This document shows positions 37,334 to 50,287 of a stretch of 64,000 nucleotides of DNA, one piece after another (positions within the stretch are counted from its first letter, which is position 1; each line of letters opens with the position of its first letter). The position numbers and the translations under genes are program-made. The stretch spans positions 2,350,223 through 2,414,222 of the forward strand of contig CP012155.1 in the NCBI GenBank assembly GCA_001602415.1. The letters run 5' to 3'. The notes beneath the pieces are model-generated. The model was not told where the DNA came from and did no database searches. It saw only the letters and a list, made by a program, of their open reading frames with translations. The DNA is from Bacteroidetes bacterium UKL13-3 (lineage in GTDB: Bacteria > Bacteroidota > Bacteroidia > UKL13-3).

Positions 37334-38106
37334 CTCCTAAAATACTCTTAACGTTTGATGTAGAAGAATTTGATATTCCTGAAGAGTACGGGCAAGTTAT
37401 TGACTGGAATACCAAAATACAAATAGGCACCACAGGATTGGAAGAAGTACTTAAGTTAATTGTACCCTCTCACATTCCTTGTACTTTTTTCACCACAGCT
37501 AAGTTTGCACAAGCACAGCCTTCTCTCATTCAATCGCTATCATCCTTTCACGAAATAGCGTCACATGGTTATGATCATTCTCATTTTGAAGTAACTCATC
37601 TCAAGCTATCGAAAGATATATTGGAAAATATTACACAACAACAAATAAACGGTTACCGAATGGCTCGGTTAGCCCCAGTTAATAATTCGGAAATTGAGAA
37701 GGCAGGATACCAATATAACTCATCCATGAATCCAACATGGATTCCGGGGCGATACAATAACCTCAATAAACCACGCCACCCTTATTTTGTAAACAACACC
37801 TTAATTATTCCAACCTCTGTAACAACTAATTTTAGAATACCACTATTTTGGCTCACCATTAAAAACTTTCCGATGTGGTGGATTAAAAGAGAACTGATCT
37901 ATACATTGAAAAAAGATGGATTTTTGTCCCTGTATTTTCATCCTTGGGAATTTACAGATACCTCCGGTTTTGGATTGCCAGGTTATATTTCCAAGCGCAA
38001 TGGGCCTGAAATGATTAAACGGCTAACTGAGTTGATTATACTTTTAAAACAACATGGAGAATTTGTTACGATGAATGCCTTTGCCAAAATTTTTACGAAA
38101 CCATAA
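37330..38106 (+). CDS. polysaccharide deacetylase family protein
   Basis: The 258-residue protein has the NodB homology fold: LLTFDVEEFD (catalytic Asp and metal-binding Asp region) near the start, SHGYDHSHF (metal-binding His pair), YRMARLAP and the late LYFHPWEF motif with the conserved His. There is no signal peptide, so it may act on cytoplasmic or lipid-linked sugars. It is coupled to the GT2 gene by an ATGA overlap and converges with the ygiD-like gene, overlapping it by 14 bases. Confidence 0.88.
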   Translation: MTPKILLTFDVEEFDIPEEYGQVIDWNTKIQIGTTGLEEVLKLIVPSHIPCTFFTTAKFAQAQPSLIQSLSSFHEIASHGYDHSHFEVTHLKLSKDILENITQQQINGYRMARLAPVNNSEIEKAGYQYNSSMNPTWIPGRYNNLNKPRHPYFVNNTLIIPTSVTTNFRIPLFWLTIKNFPMWWIKRELIYTLKKDGFLSLYFHPWEFTDTSGFGLPGYISKRNGPEMIKRLTELIILLKQHGEFVTMNAFAKIFTKP

Positions 38107-38923
38107 AACACCGCATACTAATTGATCCCATTTGCATCTCTTCATAAAATAATTTGAGCTCTTCGTTTTTTTGCTGCAAAGCCGCAGCGTATAACATGGG
38201 ATGATAATGTTCGTTGGTTGGAATGGATAATTGAACAGCCTTTCCAAACGGAGCATAATCAATTAACGGAGCATGATTATGCGATTGAAGATTTGCCTTT
38301 ACCTTTTCATCAAACTCTATTGCCCAATCGTATCCTTTCGCATTTGGATTATTCCAATCTAGCATTCCCTGATTGTGAACGATATTTCCACTACCAATGA
38401 TAAGCAATCCCTTATTGCGGAGGGCATTCAACTCTTTAGCCAAATTATAGTGATAAGCAGGACCTTTACTAAAATCTAAACTCAACTGAAAAACCGGAAT
38501 ATTTGCATCCGGATACATTTGCTTTAAAACCGCCCAAGCTCCATGATCTAAAACCCACTCATCGTCATGTAATACTTTTGTAGAGGTAATTTGGCTGCTA
38601 ACCATTTTAGCAAATTCGGGTGATCCATTTGCCGGATATTGAACATCAAATAATGCTTTTGGAAATCTACCAAAATCGTGAATGGTTTTAGGAGCAGGAG
38701 ATACATGAACAAAGGTTCCGCGGGTTTGCCAGTGAGCCGATACTACCATAATGGCCTTGGGTTTTTCCAAACTTTGCCCAAGTTTTTGTAAACTTTTAGT
38801 ATAGCTATTTTGCTCTATGGCATTCATGGGGGAACCATGCCCAATAAACAACGCAGGCATTCGCGATGTATTTTTTTCAGTTAACAATTCGTTACCAAAT
38901 GTTCTTAAATCCAAAGTAGTCAT
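38093..38923 (-). CDS. ygiD: YgiD-like 4,5-DOPA extradiol dioxygenase family protein
   Basis: The 276-residue enzyme belongs to the LigB-type extradiol dioxygenase superfamily. Metal-binding and active-site features are visible: FIGHGSPMNA (His) near residue 28, VVSAHWQT (His) near residue 61, DHGAWAVL (His) near 125, and GSGNIVHN (His). Members open catechol rings such as DOPA in vitro, but their natural substrate in most bacteria is unsettled. The gene ends inside the convergent deacetylase gene. Confidence 0.9.
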   Translation of the reverse strand: MTTLDLRTFGNELLTEKNTSRMPALFIGHGSPMNAIEQNSYTKSLQKLGQSLEKPKAIMVVSAHWQTRGTFVHVSPAPKTIHDFGRFPKALFDVQYPANGSPEFAKMVSSQITSTKVLHDDEWVLDHGAWAVLKQMYPDANIPVFQLSLDFSKGPAYHYNLAKELNALRNKGLLIIGSGNIVHNQGMLDWNNPNAKGYDWAIEFDEKVKANLQSHNHAPLIDYAPFGKAVQLSIPTNEHYHPMLYAAALQQKNEELKLFYEEMQMGSISMRCFMVS

Positions 38924-38980
38924 AACGGCTAATCATCCCAGGCTTTTAATAAACTCACTTCTTTTCATCACACTAAATTA

Positions 38981-39017
38981 AAAAAAATAAGCATGGTGTA
39001 TTGCACCCATGCTTATT
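38981..39017 (-). terminator. terminator of the yceI transcript
   Basis: On the minus strand AATAAGCATGG pairs perfectly with CCATGCTTATT around a loop of about nine bases and is followed by eight T residues. It lies about 64 bases downstream of the yceI-like stop codon. Confidence 0.85.
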
Positions 39018-39080
39018 AACCACTAAACTATGAAATGTTCACTCGGCCTACTCACTTGCATCGTGAACATATCACGGTAA

Positions 39081-39692
39081 TTATTTTCCTGCAACTACGC
39101 GTACTTTAATATTAAAATCGTTATCTATAGCTTTATCACCAATTCCTTCGAAGAATGATTTTGAACCATATTTAATATCCCATTTGGTGCGGTCTATATT
39201 AAAATCGGCATTAGCGGTAACAGTGTTTCCTTTTACAATAATAATTGCAGGGAAAGAAACTTCGTTTGTAATACCTTTTATGTTTAAATCAGCTGTTACG
39301 TTGAAGTTCTCAGCAGTTTTACTACCTTTAATCGCTTCAACTTTTTTAATTGTTAATACAGATTTAGTGTTTTTTTCTACAGAGAAGAAATCATCTGATT
39401 TTAAATGTCCTTCAAGCTTTCCTTTGTATTCACCTTGCAAATCGGTAACGTTAATTGAAGTCATATCCACTTCAATTGCACCTCCTGTAATCATTCCTTT
39501 GTCAACTGTAACATTTCCACCTGAAACATTGATTGTTCCAAAATGTTCGCCTGTTACTTTTTTAGCATGCCACTTTAATGTGCTTGCTTTAGCATCTACT
39601 TTTAATGACTTGCTTGCCTTGGTGTTTTTTGGCTCTCCTGCAAATACCGATAATCCCAGACCGATAAATGCTACTAGTGTTAGTTTTTTCAT
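39081..39692 (-). CDS. YceI-like periplasmic lipocalin-fold protein
   Basis: The 203-residue protein has a signal peptide (cleavage near VFAGE) and the YceI pattern: LKWHAKKVTGEHFGTI near residue 38, then MTSINVTDL, GHLKSDDFF, and FNIDRTKWDIKYGS near the C-terminus. YceI proteins bind polyisoprenoid lipids such as isoprenoid quinones. It is 20 bases downstream of a MarR-type gene on the same strand, a common pairing that suggests MarR control. A terminator follows at 38981. Confidence 0.92.
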   Translation of the reverse strand: MKKLTLVAFIGLGLSVFAGEPKNTKASKSLKVDAKASTLKWHAKKVTGEHFGTINVSGGNVTVDKGMITGGAIEVDMTSINVTDLQGEYKGKLEGHLKSDDFFSVEKNTKSVLTIKKVEAIKGSKTAENFNVTADLNIKGITNEVSFPAIIIVKGNTVTANADFNIDRTKWDIKYGSKSFFEGIGDKAIDNDFNIKVRVVAGK

Positions 39693-39712
39693 GTGTTAAA
39701 TTGTTTATGTGT

Positions 39713-40171
39713 TTAGTTTTGTGTTCTTAATTTATCTAGCAATTCATTGAGTTGGCTTGACTCTTCTTCTGATAACAGAATCATCTTTGATTCTTGTTCT
39801 TCAATCACCGAATCAAGTTGTGTGAGCAAGTTTTTTCCAGCATCTGTGATAAAAATTTCTACCGAACGTCTATCGCTTTTGCATCCAACTCTTTCAACCA
39901 AGTTTTTCTCTTTTAGTTTATCAATTAATCGAGATGCATTTGAGTTTTTATCCAACATCCTCTCTTGAATCCCATTCACACCTATTGGATTTCCTCTTTG
40001 ACCCCTTAAAATCCTTAGCACATTATACTGCTCGCCCGATATTCCATAAGATTTAAACAAACGAGTTTGATTACATCTCAACCATCCGGCCGTAAAGATG
40101 ATGTTCAAGGTTGCCTTCTGCTTGTTGCTTGAAAACTTTGTTTGTTGTATTTCTTTTTCGAGTATTATCAA
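39713..40171 (-). CDS. MarR-family transcriptional regulator
   Basis: The 152-residue protein has the winged-helix MarR fold with YNVLRILRGQRGNPIGVNGI (helix-turn-helix region, residues about 50 to 70), NASRLIDKLKEKNLVERV, and SDRRSVEIFIT (wing). The start is TTG at 40171: the codon just upstream is TAA, and the nearest ATG (40182) is in another frame and stops after four codons. Palindromes overlap and precede the start, so autoregulation with yceI is likely. Confidence 0.88.
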   Translation of the reverse strand: MIILEKEIQQTKFSSNKQKATLNIIFTAGWLRCNQTRLFKSYGISGEQYNVLRILRGQRGNPIGVNGIQERMLDKNSNASRLIDKLKEKNLVERVGCKSDRRSVEIFITDAGKNLLTQLDSVIEEQESKMILLSEEESSQLNELLDKLRTQN

Positions 40172-40202
40172 TTAATTGTCATGCAAATATATGTATATAC
40201 AT
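40169..40202. promoter_or_regulatory. candidate MarR operator palindromes
   Basis: Two perfect palindromes lie here: CAATTAATTG at 40169 to 40178, overlapping the marR start codon, and ATGTATATACAT at 40191 to 40202. ATTAATTGT also recurs as a direct repeat at 40171 and 40201. Sites of this form are typical of MarR autoregulation. Confidence 0.45.
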
Positions 40203-40383
40203 TAATTGTATAAACAATACTATCTGTTGATCTGAAAATATTGTCTAAATAATTAGTCTTTAGGCATTAAAAATAATTCGCTACCTTCCATAGATCTAGA
40301 AAATCATTTTAAAAGTAAACTGCGGTATTGTAAACCGAAAATTGCCTTATCGTAAATATAAACGTTTTTACAGCGAATCAGTT

Positions 40384-41454
40384 TTGAAAAAATATTTACT
40401 GCTTTTTATGCTGCTTTATTGCGGAGGGATTTTGGCCCAAAAAGACTCAACCATGTTTGTCCATCAACCCAATCGTAACGATAATATTAGCGACTTGTCG
40501 GATGAAATTAACATTACACCATTTATTCATAATGCATCAAACGGGTTTGAATTACGTGCAAAGAAAAACTTGCGTTATGATCCAAATGAGAGCATTGGTT
40601 TTGGATTGCGGCTATCGCACAAATGGCTCATTTTGGCGATTGGTTATGGCCCTAAGAATATTCAAGAGAAAAAACACGGTAGCACAGATTATCTCAATAT
40701 AACCCTTAATTCTTATGGTAAACAACTGGGATTTGATGCCTACTATTTAGCATACAACGGTTATTATATTTCCAATCCTGCAGGTATACCAGAACTCAAT
40801 CAAGCATACGGGAAAAATTTCCCTACACTGCCAGGTTTATCTACTTTAAATATTGGATGTAATTTATTTTATGTATTTAACCACCAAAAATTTCCGTACC
40901 GTGCGCCCTTTGTTCAAAATGAATTGCAAAAACGCTCGGCAGGATCTTTTATTTTAACTGCATCCTTTTCCTACTACAATCTCAAATCGGATACAGGAAT
41001 TATTCTGGCTTTAGCCTACAATCACATTCCAACTGAATCAAGAATAACTGATGGCTCATTTAATAGTTTGAGCATAATGCCAGGCTATACATTTACGCTT
41101 GTTGGTTTAAAGCGGTTCTTTTTTACGCTGTCGCCCTCAATGGGAGTAATGGTTCAATATCAAACCTATTGCATTGAAAATGAAACACAAACGCGAAACG
41201 TTGTTGATATAGCCCCTCGAATTATGACTAGAGTTGCAATGGGTTATAATGGAAAACATTTTTATACTGGCTTCAATGGAGTTTTGGATAACTATAATGT
41301 ACATCTTGCTAACAAAGATTTTTTACTCTATACAATTGGTGGTGGCTCCTTCTAAGTTGGTTATCGCTTTGGCGTTCCAAAATCGTTGCAAAAAGTATTT
41401 GATAAACTCGAATACTATCATCCTCAAAAAATAATTCAACGTTTAAAAAACTAA
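40384..41454 (+). pseudogene. second DUF4421 family gene, interrupted by in-frame TAA near its end
   Basis: The likely start is TTG 40384, giving signal peptide KKYLLLFMLLYCGG with cleavage near ILAQ; there is no upstream ATG in frame. The barrel-like body resembles the gene at 20577. TAA at 41353 to 41355 falls inside the last strand: GGGSF-stop-VGYRFGVPKSL, and the same frame continues 32 codons to TAA at 41452. Aligned with the paralogue, YFRIFFGRRF places Arg at the stop position, so AAA (Lys) to TAA is likely. The extension overlaps the convergent acyltransferase stop by four bases. The truncated protein would lack its final strand. Confidence 0.72.
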
Positions 41455-42326
41455 ACTTGGTTGCGTTTGTGTTTCCACCTACGATGACTCCATAACCACA
41501 ATTCGGGTTTGTTAATAATGTCAGCCTCGAGGATTTTAGTGTGTTGCTCAGTAATCCAGTTATCGGCAGTATCCTTAGGCGTTTTGGTAATAACAGTAAA
41601 AGATGTTTCATAATATCCCCTCTTAACCCTATTAATATGAACAAACACAACCGGACGATTGAGCTTTTTAGCAATCTTCTCAGTACCTAAAAAAACAGGA
41701 GTATCTTGATTTAGGAATGTCATCCAATGACAAGCATCTTTGTTACTCGGTGTTTGATCGGCCAAAAAACCTGTAGCTGTTAACAAATCCTTTCTCCTAA
41801 TCATTTCTTTTATAGAAACTTGCATAGGAATAAGTCCAACCCCCCAGCGTGAGCGAAGTTTATATGTTAACCAATCCATAAAAGGACTGCTCAATGGATG
41901 ATACAACACATCTTGCTGGAATGTACCTTTAAGATGAAAACTTTGTCCGCACCACTCCCAATTACCATAATGCCCCAACACAAAAATAATTGGCTGATTT
42001 TGCTGCCTAAATTCTTCGAGAATCTCGGCATTAATGAAGCGGAAACGGTTTTGGATAGCAATTGGCGACATAACCAATTGTTTGAAACTCTCCAAAAACA
42101 AATCAATCATAAAAGCGTAGTACTTTTTGCCTATTTGCTTAATTTCTGCTTCAGACTTCTGCGGAAATGAGTTCTTCAAATTTTGATAGATAACATTTTT
42201 ACGATAACCAATAAAATGGTATCCCAAAACATATAACAGATCTGAAACCTTATAGTATATAGGAAACGGTAACGACACTAATGCATATATGGGCAATGCA
42301 AATATTGTATATAAAATCTTTTTCAT
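41451..42326 (-). CDS. LpxL/HtrB-type lipid A acyltransferase
   Basis: The 291-residue protein has an N-terminal membrane anchor (LYTIFALPIYALVSLPF) and the lysophospholipid acyltransferase core with the catalytic HX4E motif in LGHYGNWEWCGQ near residue 127, then YHPLSSPFMDWL and FLADQTPSNKD. It adds a secondary acyl chain to lipid A. ATG 42326 is chosen because it begins the anchor; the frame stays open upstream to 42515 but that part overlaps the GreA-like gene on the other strand. Confidence 0.9.
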   Translation of the reverse strand: MKKILYTIFALPIYALVSLPFPIYYKVSDLLYVLGYHFIGYRKNVIYQNLKNSFPQKSEAEIKQIGKKYYAFMIDLFLESFKQLVMSPIAIQNRFRFINAEILEEFRQQNQPIIFVLGHYGNWEWCGQSFHLKGTFQQDVLYHPLSSPFMDWLTYKLRSRWGVGLIPMQVSIKEMIRRKDLLTATGFLADQTPSNKDACHWMTFLNQDTPVFLGTEKIAKKLNRPVVFVHINRVKRGYYETSFTVITKTPKDTADNWITEQHTKILEADIINKPELWLWSHRRWKHKRNQV

Positions 42327-42367
42327 TACACAACAAATGTAATGGTTTCTTATTTTTACCGCAGAAA

Positions 42368-42820
42368 ATGAATATTCCATCCAAAGAAAGTATTTTACAA
42401 GCCTGCAGGGATATGTTGCTGGACAGAATTGCACATGCCGAAAAGGCGATGAATGCTGCCCAAGAATCATCCAACAGTGAAGACAAAAGCAGCGCAGGCG
42501 ACAAATATGAAACATCGAGAGCCATGGGGCAACTTGATAGAAACATGAACGCTAAACAATTGTTTCAAGCACAACATGAATTACAAGAACTTCATAAAAT
42601 AGATATTCAACCCACACAAAATATTAGAAGCGGTGCACTCTTAATTTGCAATACAGATATTTACTTTATAGCCATTGGCTTAGGGCCGATTACAGTTCAT
42701 AATAAAAAAATAATAGTATTATCATCAAAATCGCCTTTAGCATTAGCAATGTGGGGTAAGAGGATAGGAGATAATTTCACCTTCAATCAACGAAAACTGT
42801 TAATTAAAAGTGTTTTATAG
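42368..42820 (+). CDS. GreA/GreB C-terminal-like small protein
   Basis: The 150-residue protein starts MNIPSKESILQAC at ATG 42368. It has an N-terminal helical part with an acidic/polar stretch (QESSNSEDKSSAGDKYE, where GreA proteins have a coiled coil with acidic tip). The C-terminal domain contains VLSSKSPLALAMWGKRIGD, closely matching the FKBP-like GreA C-terminal motif. It is shorter in the coiled coil than GreA, so it may bind RNA polymerase without transcript cleavage activity. Related Bacteroidota proteins are often mislabelled as 3-oxoacyl-ACP synthase. Function is inferred from fold. Confidence 0.65.
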   Translation: MNIPSKESILQACRDMLLDRIAHAEKAMNAAQESSNSEDKSSAGDKYETSRAMGQLDRNMNAKQLFQAQHELQELHKIDIQPTQNIRSGALLICNTDIYFIAIGLGPITVHNKKIIVLSSKSPLALAMWGKRIGDNFTFNQRKLLIKSVL

Positions 42821-42911
42821 ACACGTCAACAAATTACTTAACAATTACAACTCAATTTAATTCCTTGCAAATTATACTTTGAGGCTTAAATTTGACCAAC
42901 ATTTCAAAAAT

Positions 42912-43895
42912 ATGACTGCATCATCTATAACGCCTACTCGAAAAGAAATTATGTTGCATTTGGGACAATCAGTTGATCAATACACAACTGAATTCCTCAA
43001 ACCTATTGAAACAAATTGGCAAGCATCTGAATTGTTACCCCTCACTTCTGAAACAACCTTTATTGCCGATTTGAAAACCATACAGGAACAAGCCGAAGGT
43101 TTATCCTACGATTTGCTTGCCGTTTTGGTTGCAGATACCATTACCGAAGAAGCTTTGCCAACATACGAAACTTGGCTAGCGGGAGTTGAAGGTGTTGATC
43201 AATATGGAAACAATGGTTGGATGAAATGGTTGAGAGGGTGGACTGCCGAAGAGAACCGTCATGGTGATGTGTTAAACCGGTATTTATATTTATGCGGACG
43301 TATTAATATGCGTGAGTTTGAAGCCTCAACCCAATATTTAATTGCAGACGGATTTAACAATGGCGCGGGAGATGACCCTTACCGTAATTTTGTGTATACT
43401 AGTTTTCAGGAGTTGGCAACCAACATATCGCACCGAAGAGTAGCCAGTATAGCCAAACAACAAGGCAGTAACATTTTATCAAAACTATGTGGATTGGTTG
43501 CTGCCGATGAAGCCCGACATGCCAAAGCATACAAAACATTTGTTTCTAAAATTTTTGAACTCGACCCTAATGAAATGATTTTGGCATTTGAGGATATGAT
43601 GCGTAAAAAAATTGCGATGCCATCTCAATACCTTCGTCAATTGGGCGAAGAAGTGGGTATATTTTCCAACTTTAGTGATGCCGCTCAACGTATAGGCGTT
43701 TATACAGCTTTCGATTACACCGATATTTTAAAATCGCTTATTGAAGAGTGGGAAATTGAAAGCATACGCGGCTTGCAAGAGTCAGGCGAAAAAGCTCGAG
43801 ATTATATTATTACATTACCAGATAGATTAAACAGAATTGCAGAGCGCATGCGTGTTCCCGATACGCATTATAAATTCAATTGGATATTAGCTTAG
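42912..43895 (+). CDS. acyl-ACP desaturase (ferritin-like di-iron)
   Basis: The 327-residue protein belongs to the soluble stearoyl-ACP desaturase family, which introduces a double bond into acyl-ACP using a di-iron centre and ferredoxin. The two iron-binding motifs EENRHGD (near residue 115) and DEARHAK (near 203) are complete. ATG 42912 (MTASSITPTRK) is chosen over in-frame upstream codons that lack family-like sequence. The neighbouring acyltransferase suggests shared membrane-lipid roles, but the two are convergent and not one operon. Confidence 0.93.
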   Translation: MTASSITPTRKEIMLHLGQSVDQYTTEFLKPIETNWQASELLPLTSETTFIADLKTIQEQAEGLSYDLLAVLVADTITEEALPTYETWLAGVEGVDQYGNNGWMKWLRGWTAEENRHGDVLNRYLYLCGRINMREFEASTQYLIADGFNNGAGDDPYRNFVYTSFQELATNISHRRVASIAKQQGSNILSKLCGLVAADEARHAKAYKTFVSKIFELDPNEMILAFEDMMRKKIAMPSQYLRQLGEEVGIFSNFSDAAQRIGVYTAFDYTDILKSLIEEWEIESIRGLQESGEKARDYIITLPDRLNRIAERMRVPDTHYKFNWILA

Positions 43896-43909
43896 TTGCA
43901 GTGGTTTCC

Positions 43910-43917
43910 TATATTTG
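43910..43917 (+). promoter_or_regulatory. putative -7 box of a gene cut by the IS
   Basis: TATATTTG matches TAnnTTTG and lies 29 bases before ATG 43947, whose frame is cut off by the IS1595-type end. Confidence 0.4.
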
Positions 43918-43946
43918 AGGCTCATTTAAAAGTAGTACCCTCTTTT

Positions 43947-43982
43947 ATGAAACTCATCCCGCATTGCAATATCATTTTTTAG
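43947..43982 (+). pseudogene. start of a gene truncated by the IS1595-type element
   Basis: ATG 43947 reads MKLIPHCNIIF and then TAG, where the AG comes from the IS left end at 43981. With the -7 box at 43910 this looks like the first 11 codons of a gene whose remainder is absent. It is too short to identify. Confidence 0.3.
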
Positions 43983-44072
43983 AATAACTCATATACTTAC
44001 CCCAAATAAAAAATGTTAGCCTGCAGATAGGCTGCGGATTGAAGAAAGAGCTTTGAATAAAAATAACAGATT

Positions 44073-44945
44073 ATGTTCAAAGGGTATGACATTTTAGACT
44101 TTGTTCGCACATATTGCGAAGAGTCGATTTGCCAAGAATATTTGGCGAATGCGAAATGGGGAAACGGTTTCAGATGTGTAAAATGTGGGAACACAAGTTG
44201 GAGCAGGGTGGCTGAAACCTATAACCGTAAATGCAATAAGTGCAAACATATTGAGTCGCCTACATCGGGAACACTCTTCCACAAAGTGAAATCCCCCCTG
44301 ACTAAAGCTTTTCTATTTGTGTTTTTAGTAAGCACAAGTAAGAAAGGAATAAGTAGCTATGAGTTGGCTCGCAAATTGAGTTTACGACAAACTACCTGTT
44401 ACTTTTTTAGCAGAAAAATAATGAAGGCGATGAATATTAAAGAGCCTAAACTTTTGGATGGCAAAGTGGATGTAGATGAGTTTTTTGTAGGAGGTCCTGA
44501 AACGGGTAAACCCGGCAGAAGTAAAGGAAAGAAGAAACAAGTAGTGATGGTAATACAAATGAAGAAAAAGGGAATTGTACGATGTTATGCCAACCAAATA
44601 CCTAGTGCTGGAACGAAACAATTGAAGCCGTTTTTTCAAAAGTATATAAGCAAGGAAGCATTAATAAGGACTGATAAATGGCGAGGTTACAGACCTTTGA
44701 AATACTTATTTCCATGGCTAAAACAGGAGGTATCGGTGCCTAAAAACAACTTCAGGTTATTTCATAGGCAAGTAATGATGCTCAAGGCTTGGTTAAGAGG
44801 AATCCATCACCAAGCAAAACATTTACAACCGTACCTTGATGAGTTTACTTGGAGATTTAACAATAGAAACAATCCTAACTTGTTCGATATTTTGATATCT
44901 TCGATGATGAAAGAAAAAGCGACTCCAATTAAACTGTTAACCTGA
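44073..44945 (+). CDS. IS1595-family transposase (ISXO2-like)
   Basis: The 290-residue transposase has an N-terminal zinc ribbon (CVKCG and CNKCK, residues about 35 to 58) and the DDE-type core with VDVDEFFVGG, RTDKWRGY and a C-terminal FTWRFNNR motif. Family assignment follows from that combination. Its last codons (LLT, stop) come from the IS982 end: the stop TGA at 44943 lies inside that element's left repeat. The change affects only about eight terminal residues, so activity may be kept. Confidence 0.9.
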   Translation: MFKGYDILDFVRTYCEESICQEYLANAKWGNGFRCVKCGNTSWSRVAETYNRKCNKCKHIESPTSGTLFHKVKSPLTKAFLFVFLVSTSKKGISSYELARKLSLRQTTCYFFSRKIMKAMNIKEPKLLDGKVDVDEFFVGGPETGKPGRSKGKKKQVVMVIQMKKKGIVRCYANQIPSAGTKQLKPFFQKYISKEALIRTDKWRGYRPLKYLFPWLKQEVSVPKNNFRLFHRQVMMLKAWLRGIHHQAKHLQPYLDEFTWRFNNRNNPNLFDILISSMMKEKATPIKLLT

Positions 44946-46006
44946 GTTCGGGATAAGAAAGTGTTGATTATTTTGTTTATAATTATTTGGTAATCAAATA
45001 ATTAGTAGCATTGGAAGTGTTAATTTTGTAGTCCAAAAAAACATAAAAAACACACCAATGCTACGAGATAAAATTACAGAAACTTTTGTAAAAGTTGATG
45101 ATTTCTGCAATGAATTTGAAATTTTGTATTCAAAACACCAATTACCCGCACCATCAAACGTTAAAACAAGAAATAGAAAAGCCGGAATGTGTGACTCTGA
45201 AATTATCACACTCCTGATTGCGTTTCATGGTGGTCAATTCAGGAATTTCAAGCATTTTTATGTGGACTATGTGTCTGTTCATTTAAGAGAAGATTTTCCC
45301 GGATTGGTTTCCTATAACAGGTTTATTGAATTGAGTCATCGTTGTGCTATTGCATTCATGTTGTTTCTCCATCATTGTTGCAAAGGCGAGTGCACTGGCA
45401 TTAGCTTTATTGATTCTACTGTACTGCGTGTTTGTCACAACAAAAGGATAAAGCGTAATAAAACATTTAAAGGCTTTGCAGAGGTTGGTAAATCATCAAT
45501 GGGATGGTTCTTTGGCTTTAAACTTCACCTGATTATAAACGACAAAGGTGAGATATTATCTTTGTTTCTAACCAAAGGAAATGTGGATGATAGAGATGCT
45601 AAAACAATTACCAATATGACTAAAGACCTTTTCGGAAAACTATTTGGAGATAAGGGATATATCTCAAAAGCATTGAGTGATCTGCTTTTTGGCAACGGTA
45701 TACAACTCATTACAGCTGTAAGAAGAAACATGAAATCTAAAGCATTGAGCAATGAAGAGAAACTTCTTTTAAGGAAACGGTCCGTGATTGAAACCGTAAA
45801 TGATGAGTTAAAAAACATTTGTCAAGTTGAACATACAAGACATCGCTCTATCAGCGGTTTTCTTCTTAATGTTATGAGTGCAATTGCTGCGTATTCTTTC
45901 TTTCCTAAAAAACCTTCCATCAAAAAAGATATTGAGGAAACAAACCCTCAGCTTATCAAGCAACTTGAACAACAATTGACATTAGCTGCTTAAACCGAAC
46001 TCAGGT
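44940..46006 (+). mobile_element. IS982-family insertion sequence
   Basis: ACCTGAGTTCGG at the left end and CCGAACTCAGGT at the right end form perfect terminal inverted repeats. TGTTA flanks both sides as a likely five-base target duplication. The element holds one intact transposase gene and sits at the 3' end of the IS1595-type transposase gene. Confidence 0.85.
45058..45993 (+). CDS. IS982-family transposase
   Basis: The 311-residue DDE transposase has catalytic residues visible in FIDSTVLRVC, FGDKGYIS and the Glu of RSVIETVNDELK. The N-terminal MLRDKITETFVKVDDFC and the SYNRFIEL motif are typical of IS982. It is full length with no internal stop, and ends 13 bases before the right inverted repeat end, so the element looks intact and possibly active. 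Confidence 0.93.
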   Translation: MLRDKITETFVKVDDFCNEFEILYSKHQLPAPSNVKTRNRKAGMCDSEIITLLIAFHGGQFRNFKHFYVDYVSVHLREDFPGLVSYNRFIELSHRCAIAFMLFLHHCCKGECTGISFIDSTVLRVCHNKRIKRNKTFKGFAEVGKSSMGWFFGFKLHLIINDKGEILSLFLTKGNVDDRDAKTITNMTKDLFGKLFGDKGYISKALSDLLFGNGIQLITAVRRNMKSKALSNEEKLLLRKRSVIETVNDELKNICQVEHTRHRSISGFLLNVMSAIAAYSFFPKKPSIKKDIEETNPQLIKQLEQQLTLAA

Positions 46007-46037
46007 TGTTAAATTCTTACTGGGGTAGCTAAATGAG

Positions 46038-46799
46038 TTATTCTATTCTGGCAATTTGTTTCGTATATTGAATTGCAAATCCAAAAAAATTCCATCGGCT
46101 TTTTTCGCCAGCAACAACCTTTCTGCTGCTCCAGTAAGGAATTATTTCCCATTTACGTTTTGCGTCATTTTTCATAAACGGTTTAACAGCTCTTTGCGGA
46201 GGTGAAACTGGCTTAAATACATAATCAACACCAACACTTAATGTAGGCCAATTAACTCCTTTATTAGGATCTTTAATTCCGACATTTGAAATATGATTGT
46301 ATTGGCCATAAACATTTACATTGAGTTGAGTATTTAATTTTACATGAATGCCTAAACCCAATGCAACATATCCACTAATTGGCAAACTATACGATTGGTT
46401 TGTTGGATTTTTATCTATTTGATATGGATTGGTAAGGTAAGCTAAGCCTTTAATTCCTTTTAATGAAGCACTCACTTTTTTACCATAACCCCAATATGGT
46501 TCAATATAAGTTGAAGCGTGAATACTTTGACCTAAAACAGCATTATCATAGTTAACATATTGTAGTATAAATCCTGTTCGTGGATAACAATTATAGGTAT
46601 TCCAAGTACGCTCATCCAACAACTGTTTATTCCATTCAATTTGCAAACCCCAAGGATAACTTCCATCTGTATTCTGAACATCTTTAGAATGCGCAAAAGT
46701 TAAACCTTTATCAAATGAAAAGCCTAAGCTAGTTTCCTTTAATTGTGCTTTCAAAGCAAAAAAACTCGTTACTGAAATTTAAAAAAAAATATATCGCAT
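46038..46799 (-). pseudogene. PagL-like lipid A deacylase gene with a stop in the signal peptide
   Basis: ATG 46799 reads MRYIFF, then TAA at 46779 to 46781, then ISVTSFFALKAQ, which together form a normal signal peptide if the TAA were a sense codon (TTA Leu or AAA Lys). The mature part of about 238 residues is an outer-membrane barrel with the PagL-type active-site motif HISNVGIKDPNKGVN (His, Ser) near residue 160. The family removes a 3-O-acyl chain from lipid A. The only possible downstream start is TTG 46754, which would lack a signal peptide. The 3' end is also altered: its TAA at 46038 lies in the IS1595-type right end. Confidence 0.75.
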
Positions 46800-46871
46800 A
46801 CAGTACAAACTAGATAAACAATTCTAGTTGGCATTATAAAGCTAATCCAACACAATAAACAATACTCAAAC

Positions 46872-49800
46872 CTACATATTCCTTCTATACTGCCCTCCCA
46901 CTTCAAACAATGAATGTGTTATCTGACCCAACGAACAATATTTAACGGTTTCCATCAATTCATTGAAAATATTTCCATTGTGGATGGCTACCTGTTGTAA
47001 TTTGTGTAGCATCTCTTTACCTTTTTCTTTATTGCCTGACTTCAGTTCATTCAACATCTTAATCTGAAACTCTTTTTCTTCAGTTGTTGAACGAATCACT
47101 TCTTTTGGTAAAATGGTTGGAGATCCTTTGCTGCTTAAGAACGTATTCACACCAATGATTGGAAACTCTCCGGAATGTTTCTGCATCTCGTAATACATAC
47201 TTTCTTCTTGAATCTTGTTGCGCTGGTACATTGTTTCCATGGCACCCAATACACCACCTCGTTCGGTTATTTTATCGAATTCACTTAATACGGCTTCTTC
47301 CACCAAATCAGTTAACTCTTCAATGATGAATGAACCTTGTAACGGGTTTTCATTTTTAGCCAATCCCAACTCGCGGTTGATGATTAACTGAATGGCCATT
47401 GCACGCCTCACCGATTCTTCGGTTGGTGTAGTGATGGCCTCATCATATGCATTTGTGTGTAATGAATTACAGTTGTCATAAATAGCATACAACGCCTGCA
47501 ATGTTGTGCGGATATCGTTAAAATCAATTTCCTGAGCATGCAATGAACGGCCAGATGTTTGAATATGGTATTTCAACATTTGTGATCGTTCGTTGGCACC
47601 GTATTTCAACTTCATAGCCTTGGCCCAAATTCTGCGGCTCACACGACCGATTACAGAATACTCGGGATCGATGCCGTTTGAGAAGAAAAACGATAAGTTA
47701 GGAGCAAAATCATCGATATTCATTCCACGACTAAGGTAATACTCAACAAATGTAAATCCGTTGGATAATGTTAGTGCTAATTGTGTAATTGGATTGGCTC
47801 CTGCTTCGGCAATATGATAACCGCTAATGGAAACGGAATAGAAATTACGAACAGCATTATCAATAAAATATTGCTGCACATCTCCCATTACCCGTAATGA
47901 AAATTCGGTAGAGAAAATACACGTATTTTGTGCCTGGTCTTCTTTTAAAATATCTGCTTGAACCGTTCCACGAACTTGCTTCAATGTATCAGCTTTAATT
48001 TTTGCATATACGTCAGCTGGAAGCACCATATCTCCGGTAACACCCAACAACATCAAGCCTAGGCCATCGTTACTTTCGGGCATTTCCTCATTGTATTTCG
48101 GTCGATTTGTTCCTCTATCTTTAAAAATAGCATCTATCTTTTTGTTCACCTCATCTTCCAATCCGTTTGCTTTGATATACAATTCACATTGTTGATCGAT
48201 TGCTGCATTCATAAAGAAAGCACAGATAATGGCAGCAGGACCGTTAATAGTCATTGATACCGAGGTTTTAGGATCGGCAAGATTGAAACCAGAATACAAT
48301 TTTTTAGCTGCATCCAAACTCCACACACTTACCCCCGAGTTACCAATTTTACCATAAATATCTGGGCGGTGATCAGGGTCATTTCCATACAAAGTAACCG
48401 AATCAAATGCGGTACTTAAACGTTTAGCTGGCATCCCTTGCGATACATAGTGAAAACGCTTGTTGGTGCGTTCAGGTCCACCTTCTCCTGCAAACATACG
48501 CGTTGGATCTTCTCCTTCGCGCTTAAATGGATAAATTCCTGCTGTATACGGAAAATCTCCCGGGAAATTTTCCTGTAATGCCCAACGCAAAATTTCGCCC
48601 CATGCCCTGTAATTAGGAACGGCTACTTTGGGAATTTGTGTATGCGAGAGAGATTCGGAATGTGTTTTGATTTTGATTTCCTTATCCCTCACTTTGAACA
48701 CATAGTATTCATTGCGGAATAAATCTTTCTTCTGTTCCCATGTTTCCAGTAAGATTTTGTTGCGCGGATCGAGGTTTAATTCAATATCTGCGTAAGCAGC
48801 TTTCAGTGCTTCAATCAAGCTTGCTTCTGTATTTTTTAAAGAAGATAATGTTTCGATAGCCGATTTTAAGCCATATAATTTATCTGCAATTTCTACTTGC
48901 TTATCAACCCATTTATCGTAGTTGCGGTTATTCTCCGAAATCTCTGAAAGATAACGCGTGCGAGATGGTGGAATGATGTAAATTTTCTCACTCATCTCAT
49001 CACTAATATGGTAAGTCGATTGTAAATCAGCTCCTGAACATTCAACAATTTTATCCATCACCGCCTTATACAAGCGATTCATTCCCGGATCATTAAACTG
49101 TGAAGCAATAGTTCCGAACACCGGCATTTCATCCGGATTTTTATCAAACAACTGATGGTTGCGTTGGTATTGTTTTTTAACATCACGCAATGCATCCAAC
49201 GCGCCTTTTTTATCAAACTTGTTAATCGCAATGATATCTGCAAAATCCAACATATCAATTTTTTCCAATTGCGTTGCAGCTCCATATTCAGGAGTCATTA
49301 CATACAAACTGGTATTGCTGTGCTCAATAATTTCTGTATCACTTTGTCCGATACCCGAAGTTTCCAAAATAATCAAATCGAAGCCTGCAGCTTTAACAAT
49401 ATCTACTGCTTCCTTAACATATTTAGATAAAGCTAAGTTACTCTGGCGGGTAGCCAATGAACGCATGTACACACGAGGATTTTTTATCGAATTCATACGA
49501 ATACGATCTCCTAGCAGTGCTCCACCAGTTTTACGTTTACTAGGGTCAACAGAAATAATGGCAACCGTTTTGTTTTTAAAATCCAACAAAAATCTGCGCA
49601 CCAATTCATCAACCAACGATGACTTTCCTGCTCCTCCTGTTCCTGTTATTCCTAAAACAGGAATGGTGCTAGTAACAATTGATTTTGAAATTTCATCATG
49701 CTGCTTAACAAACGTTTCAGGGAAATTTTCGGCAGCAGAAATAAGTTTAGCTATCGATTTATAATCTTTATCCTTTAGATGTTTTACTTCACCATTCAAA

Positions 49801-50249
49801 TTTGCGCCAGTGGCAAAATCACATTTTTGCAACATATCGTTAATCATACCCTGCAACCCCATTGCACGCCCATCATCCGGACCATAAATACGGGTAATGC
49901 CATACTGATGTAATTCTTCCATCTCTTCAGGAAGAATTGTTCCTCCTCCTCCACCAAAAATCTTGATATGTCCGCAACCCTTTTGTTTCAACAAATCGTG
50001 CATAAACTTGAAATATTCCACATGCCCTCCTTGGTAAGATGTCATTGCAATAGCATTAGCATCTTCTTGAATAGCAGTATCAACAACCTCCTCTGCACTC
50101 CTATCATGACCTAAATGAATAACTTCTGCTCCAGTAGCTTGTATAATTCTGCGCATGATGTTGATGGCAGCATCGTGACCGTCAAATAATGCGGCAGCTG
50201 TTACAATTCGGATTTTATTTTGAGGGATATATTTTTCAATCGTTTCCAT
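46872..50249 (-). CDS. icmF: fused isobutyryl-CoA/methylmalonyl-CoA-type mutase IcmF
   Basis: IcmF interconverts isobutyryl-CoA and n-butyryl-CoA (or related acyl-CoAs) with adenosylcobalamin, and carries its own G-protein chaperone. Domain order over 1125 residues: B12-binding domain (residues 8 to about 145, with [10 protein letters not shown] and FGGGGGTI), MeaB-type GTPase (about 190 to 420, P-loop [13 protein letters not shown]), linker, then the mutase TIM barrel (about 530 to 1125). This fused layout distinguishes it from separate mcmA/mcmB genes. ATG 50249 is used; a TTG six bases upstream is less likely. No cobalamin riboswitch was seen ahead of it. Confidence 0.95.
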
Positions 50250-50287
50250 GTACAATGTTGATTGTTTGTATGAGGCAAAATTAAGAG

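Follow-up and report, generated by a model that had tools for sequence, protein, structure and literature searches.

A PagL-like gene of Bacteroidetes bacterium UKL13-3, probably silenced recently by a stop codon in its signal peptide and cut short beside nested insertion elements

PagL is described as an outer-membrane lipid A 3-O-deacylase in four reports (PMC3526765, PMC9581022, PMC6260217, PMC3486919), and a further source (PMC8707317) is concerned with LpxR and not with PagL. The structure used for comparison here is 2erv, the PagL protein of Pseudomonas aeruginosa. PagL enzymes employ a triad of Ser, His, and Glu. A second type of system to be considered are pseudogenes truncated by insertion elements of the IS982 and IS1595 families, in which the end of a gene is cut by the element and its downstream part is lost. 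As to proteins containing more than one barrel, the reference list of PMC9603273 includes a paper on multi-barrel proteins. Within the part of the literature covered by searches on PagL, the triad, Bacteroidetes, and two-barrel proteins, no title was recognized as treating a two-barrel PagL-like family of the Bacteroidota.

The window analysed here is a stretch of 64,000 nt from Bacteroidetes bacterium UKL13-3 (GCA_001602415.1, contig CP012155.1, positions 2,350,223-2,414,222 of the forward strand), whose genome consists of one contig and is 99.96% complete. It contains a remnant of a PagL-like gene, which on sequence grounds should be regarded as a probably recent pseudogene of an outer-membrane protein, a reading to which we assign a probability of about 0.87, and as a case of routine gene loss beside insertion elements. 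The features of the remnant are the following.

46046-46799, minus strand: PagL-like (PF09411) gene remnant comprising the signal-peptide region, the PagL barrel in full, and two strands from a predicted second barrel; it aligns with residues 1-254 of L077, the orthologue from the same genus, from whose model the strands are taken
46779-46781, minus strand: in-frame TAA, codon 7 of the gene and within its signal peptide, closing the T9 run 46781-46789 (the last T of the run is the T of the stop)
46038-46754, minus strand: internal open frame of the ORF list, starting from a TTG at 46754, 238 aa, no signal peptide, with its stop supplied by the end of an IS1595-type element
46284-46295, minus strand: HISN active-site motif, followed by Val in place of the next, nearly invariant Gly

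Relatives are cited by code where required: G001 is a genome of the same genus, the loci L025 and L077 lie on the same G001 contig, and G000 denotes the genome of UKL13-3 itself. Alignment A1 comprises 18 of the 29 loci L025-L053, a paralogue from the same genome, and the window copy (20 rows), and alignment A3 comprises 31 of 37 genome loci and the window copy (32 rows), omitting L089, L096, L097, L102, L107, and L113. ORFs were picked in the 37 loci, which yielded 35 of them (L096 contained no motif-bearing ORF, L113 no motif span); one of these is a wrong ORF (L107), and another was picked by a false motif (L091).

The assignment of the remnant to the PagL-like proteins, as made in the original prediction, is borne out by the Pfam profile PF09411, which scores 34.9 bits against the remnant protein (cut-off 23) and is matched over its positions 6-135 of 136; no NCBIfam model matched the remnant protein at E 0.001. 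The predicted nonsense codon in a signal-peptide-like start was equally confirmed. The minus-strand ATG at 46799 opens such a start, MRYIFF*ISVTSFFALKAQLKE... (MRYIFF*ISVTSFFALKAQLKETSLGF...), with the TAA of codon 7 at 46781-46779, and past this stop the remnant continues in a frame that is open up to a TAA at 46040-46038 (whole reading 46038-46799, minus strand). The best 10-residue mean of hydropathy is 1.93 when read from this ATG, with X for the stop, versus 0.47 near the TTG start. All 35 homologous ORFs contain a hydrophobic segment within their first 32 residues, with best means of 1.94-3.53, which is a generous count because the starts were chosen among the ATGs by the most hydrophobic downstream segment, thereby favouring the detection of signal peptides, and because L107 is a wrong ORF and the reading of L085, L097, and L110 starts at a position other than an ATG. 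Among the orthologues found, the nearest (G001, L025/L077) comes from the same genus and shows 60% identity. Its ORF begins with MKQGLHFMRYVIGCLFFVIATIAVKGQALSE, and the second ATG of this ORF lines up with the ATG of the remnant, MRY to MRY. Orthologues lacking the upstream signal sequence, which had been named as the finding that would speak against an interrupted signal peptide, were not encountered among the homologues examined, all of which have a hydrophobic N-terminus, and the region of the upstream ATG is very likely the real start, as judged from these alignments. The export signal expected of a PagL protein is broken in the window copy by the TAA at codon 7.

A functional cytoplasmic protein may alternatively be thought to arise from the TTG at 46754, from which the ORF is open and contains a nearly full Pfam domain. 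This appears hardly credible, since the aligned homologues reach further upstream into the hydrophobic segment, the model of the intact protein shows two membrane barrels, and a beta-barrel protein needs a signal peptide to arrive at the outer membrane.

A view on the architecture of the intact protein was obtained from an AlphaFold2 model of L077 (5938-7011, plus strand), based on a 32-sequence alignment including the window fragment (pLDDT 92, pTM 0.75), which contains 16 strands. Residues 27-195 represent an eight-stranded barrel that superimposes on 2erv_B with a Z of 18.8 and 1.9 Å over 144 aligned residues, and the window fragment aligns across this whole part. Residues 215-357 resemble the designed barrel 6x9z (Z 14.7, 2.2 Å, 116 aligned) and the OmpA barrel 2ge4 (Z 11.8, 3.4 Å, 118 aligned). 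Foldseek listed larger barrels first, which superimpose poorly (TM at most 0.27, ranks 1-28), followed at ranks 29-30 by 2erv, for which the target TM values are 0.81 and 0.83. The fragment sequence gave no match to solved structures up to E 1, and the profile of A1 matched 2erv weakly (E 0.12). As judged from this one modelled protein, the intact orthologue appears to be composed of two tandem 8-strand barrels, and the truncation of the window gene would deprive the second barrel of six of its eight strands while leaving the PagL barrel complete. According to the model, it is the stop in the signal peptide, and not the truncation, that silences the catalytic part. The relatives of the window gene thus share with 2erv the profile match, the fold of the first barrel, and the motif HxSN....PNxG, but differ from it in their length of about 360 aa and in the prediction of a second 8-strand barrel, and the window copy differs further in being without a usable signal peptide and without most of the second barrel. 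Two predicted barrels in one chain are also a property of the multi-barrel outer-membrane proteins reportedly treated by Solan et al. in 2021.

If the TAA were a sequencing or assembly error, the locus would code for an exported, C-terminally truncated protein with a self-folding PagL barrel. Such an error would be in line with the position of the stop at the end of the T9 run, with the otherwise open frame, and with the end of the first barrel, in the modelled orthologue, before the cut. However, a miscount of the Ts in the run would not by itself account for the stop, since the TAA is in frame with the downstream ORF, so that correcting the run would not open the frame (an argument reasoned from the sequence); furthermore, the genome is represented by a single and almost complete contig, and the fragment would keep two unpaired strands while lacking the C-terminal strand of the intact protein. 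We therefore consider an error at this site unlikely and retain the interpretation of the remnant as a pseudogene.

The second lesion affects the 3' end. The homologues measure about 360 aa (357-386 aa in 34 of the 35 ORFs, the remaining one being the wrong ORF of L107) and have the length behind the motif in common with the modelled protein, containing 185-204 residues from the His of the motif to the end in 33 of 35 cases (L091 and L107 are mismeasured), and because of this length, together with the hydrophobic N-terminus, the window gene should be regarded as truly interrupted. Its fragment aligns to residues 1-254 of L077, with about 103 C-terminal residues missing, and the DNA belonging to the gene ends at 46046, where an IS1595-type element abuts codon 251 or thereabouts. 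The mobile elements are arranged as follows.

43980-46045, plus strand: IS1595-type element, interrupted by IS982, whose flanks show no matching target duplication
44073-44945, plus strand: IS1595-family transposase ORF, with its last codons inside the IS982 insertion (NF033547, 151.2 bits, cut-off 75; PF12762 and PF12760)
44940-46006, plus strand: IS982-family element of 1067 bp with TGTTA adjoining both ends (NF033520, 259.5 bits, cut-off 130)
45058-45993, plus strand: IS982 transposase ORF (NF033520)

The outer element belongs to the IS1595 family by its transposase, and the inner one to the IS982 family by its transposase and its inverted ends, ACCTGAGTTCGG and CCGAACTCAGGT, which delimit 1067-1068 bp in the eight copies compared. 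Because the IS1595-type element ends at 46045, the stop at 46038-46040 lies inside the mobile element and not in the gene. The claim that the 3' end is supplied by the IS1595-type terminus therefore holds for the stop codon, but has to be refined in that an IS982 is nested in the IS1595-type copy and in that about 103 residues were lost, rather than a stop merely being replaced. The IS982 arrived after the IS1595-type element, because it is nested inside; the IS1595-type copies L010 and L011 run uninterrupted through the same sequence without IS982. This nesting of one element in the other is the only difference from the IS-truncated pseudogenes introduced above. At least 16 IS982 copies, including the present one, cover 45000-46007 at 99-100% identity, in addition to fragments (scored candidates: 40 of 68), which suggests that IS982 has recently expanded in the genome. 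The repeats flanking the other IS982 copies are mostly imperfect.

A simple insertion, with the gene resuming beyond the IS, was rejected: the 84-bp flank on the left (43896-43979), inspected by eye in all three minus-strand frames, is unlike the C-terminus of the orthologue, and a tblastn search of its last 108 residues against the window gave only weak matches elsewhere (best E 0.071). In the entire single-contig genome, a query with the last 122 residues of the orthologue did not recover the missing C-terminal third, the sole match being the paralogue at 32% identity. This result also bears on the possibility that the junction between the IS and the pagL remnant is a misassembly at a repeat and that an intact gene exists elsewhere, for which the presence of at least 16 near-complete copies of IS982 and several of the IS1595-type element might be invoked. 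Since the missing third is found nowhere else and the position of the remnant beside the acyltransferase block matches that in G001, such a misassembly is very improbable. We rather propose that a deletion starting at the IS1595-type element may have taken away the 3' third of the gene, perhaps together with some adjacent DNA. Transposition of IS1595 elements generates target duplications of 8 bp. In the genome, the altered-length copy L013 shows a match in 7 of 8 positions by eye, and L010, L011, and the window copy display no obvious duplication; its absence at the window copy would fit a deletion, a weak point as L010 and L011, two of the three other two-ended copies, are likewise without one. 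Owing to the stop in the signal peptide, no exported protein can arise from the normal start, and the product should be absent or at most persist as a cytoplasmic fragment.

The HxS motif had been predicted as intact, which is indeed the case for the HISN at 46295-46284, including the Asn following HxS. His154, Ser156, and Asn157 are invariant in the 20 rows of A1, as is Asn168, the paralogue included. Odd residues of the window copy are the Val mentioned above in place of Gly and a Tyr in place of Cys. The position 12 residues after the Ser is occupied by Asn in all 32 rows of A3, including the window, and by Glu in 2erv, the one structure serving as comparator; we take this Glu at the aligned motif to be the third member of the triad. 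The Glu of PagL is accordingly missing in 32 of 32 rows, and because Asn replaces it, the lipid A 3-O-deacylase activity of the family appears uncertain. The window gene may even be a dead member of a distinct lineage of two-barrel PagL-like outer-membrane proteins in the Bacteroidota, combining a PagL barrel, in which the invariant His-x-Ser...Asn site stands for that with Glu, with a second barrel, and having an altered chemistry or no enzymatic function at all, an idea that we put forward tentatively and at slightly less than even odds. The PagL-like proteins of the Bacteroidota aligned here appear to have two barrels and Asn in place of Glu, so that an experiment is warranted before they are named "lipid A deacylase" by transfer.

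The proposal that the loss would leave the acylation of lipid A unmodified is not supported. It does not follow from the lesions because a full-length PagL-like paralogue survives in the same genome (L021:1000-2088, minus strand, corresponding to G000:C1 at about 1750175-1751263), which is intact with 362 aa, a hydrophobic N-terminus, and the motif HFSN, and the exchange of Glu for Asn in the family argues in the same direction. A third match to PF09411 in the genome reaches 16.2 bits, which is below the cut-off. Any PagL-like function would now rest on the surviving paralogue, and in this organism it would be wrong to annotate the locus as a lipid A deacylase or to deduce the structure of lipid A from it.

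The original prediction had further connected the gene with a nearby acyltransferase. The neighbours concerned are the following.

41451-42515, minus strand: lipid A biosynthesis acyltransferase-like gene (PF03279), 3.5 kb from the remnant, whose ORF may start too far upstream
46872-50255, minus strand: icmF (fused isobutyryl-CoA mutase; NCBIfam), 72 bp upstream of the remnant and on the same strand

The genes from 38096 to 42817, including the acyltransferase-like and DUF4421 genes, are collinear with contig 5 of G001, where pagL follows beyond them in the same orientation, and from this collinearity the remnant sits where the relative carries its intact gene. In G001, a 399-aa gene overlaps the 3' end of pagL and was not found in the genome of UKL13-3, with G001 serving as positive control; for the 425-aa gene that flanks pagL opposite to it, the UKL13-3 genome offers no more than a match at 32%, located elsewhere. 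The counterpart of this G001 interval in the window holds a desaturase-like gene and the IS instead of the 399-aa gene. This fatty acid desaturase-like gene (42879-43895, PF03405), between the acyltransferase block and the IS, was found in four of eight relatives searched, but not in G001. On the other side, icmF and the genes that follow it correspond to another contig of G001 (L114), and the junction of the two blocks falls within or close to the 72-bp gap that separates icmF from the remnant (46800-46871). Adjacency of icmF and pagL was found in none of eight relatives, in all of which both genes are present, with icmF and the best match to pagL placed on separate contigs of draft assemblies, where nearness may be hidden; a linkage with icmF was rejected on this basis. 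The remnant thus occupies a shared location as far as its 3' side is concerned, the 5' side having been rearranged in one lineage or the other.

Besides G001, the acyltransferase and DUF4421 genes are carried by G010 and G021, at about 6.4 and 7.3 kb from pagL, and they do not appear in the five other fully fetched pagL regions (G015, G030, G006, G033, and G041). A profile of the acyltransferase, to which L058, L059, and L060 themselves contributed, matched four of 42 loci (L058, L059, L060, and L077, of which L058 and L077 are on the same contig), corresponding to the three genomes G001, G010, and G021; flanks in the 37 loci extended to at most 6 kb, and many were shortened by contig ends. 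As the neighbourhood is common to these three relatives only, a general functional linkage with the acyltransferase was rejected. Of the suggested relevance of this gene, the proximity and its occurrence in three relatives therefore stand, but the other loci examined are without it, and the proximity looks like shared descent of the neighbourhood.

With regard to the age of the loss, the 246-codon frame is open apart from the stop at codon 7, which counts against the pseudogene reading. Relative-rate comparisons with eight outgroups gave ratios of window-only to L077-only changes of 22:23, 20:22, 22:17, 15:19, 21:14, 23:11, 22:13, and 25:11; two outgroups lean to a faster window copy, with chi-square values of 4.24 and 5.44 (> 3.84). 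Decay by faster evolution is not borne out, as the rates are not consistently raised and two of the eight outgroups lean that way. In conserved columns, the window copy deviates at 2 of 31 positions, and the other rows at 0-4. Rate and column counts thus do not demonstrate decay beyond the two lesions, and the loss looks recent. The third-position GC of the remnant (46051-46754) is 0.20, versus 0.33-0.36 for icmF, the acyltransferase gene, and the desaturase gene.
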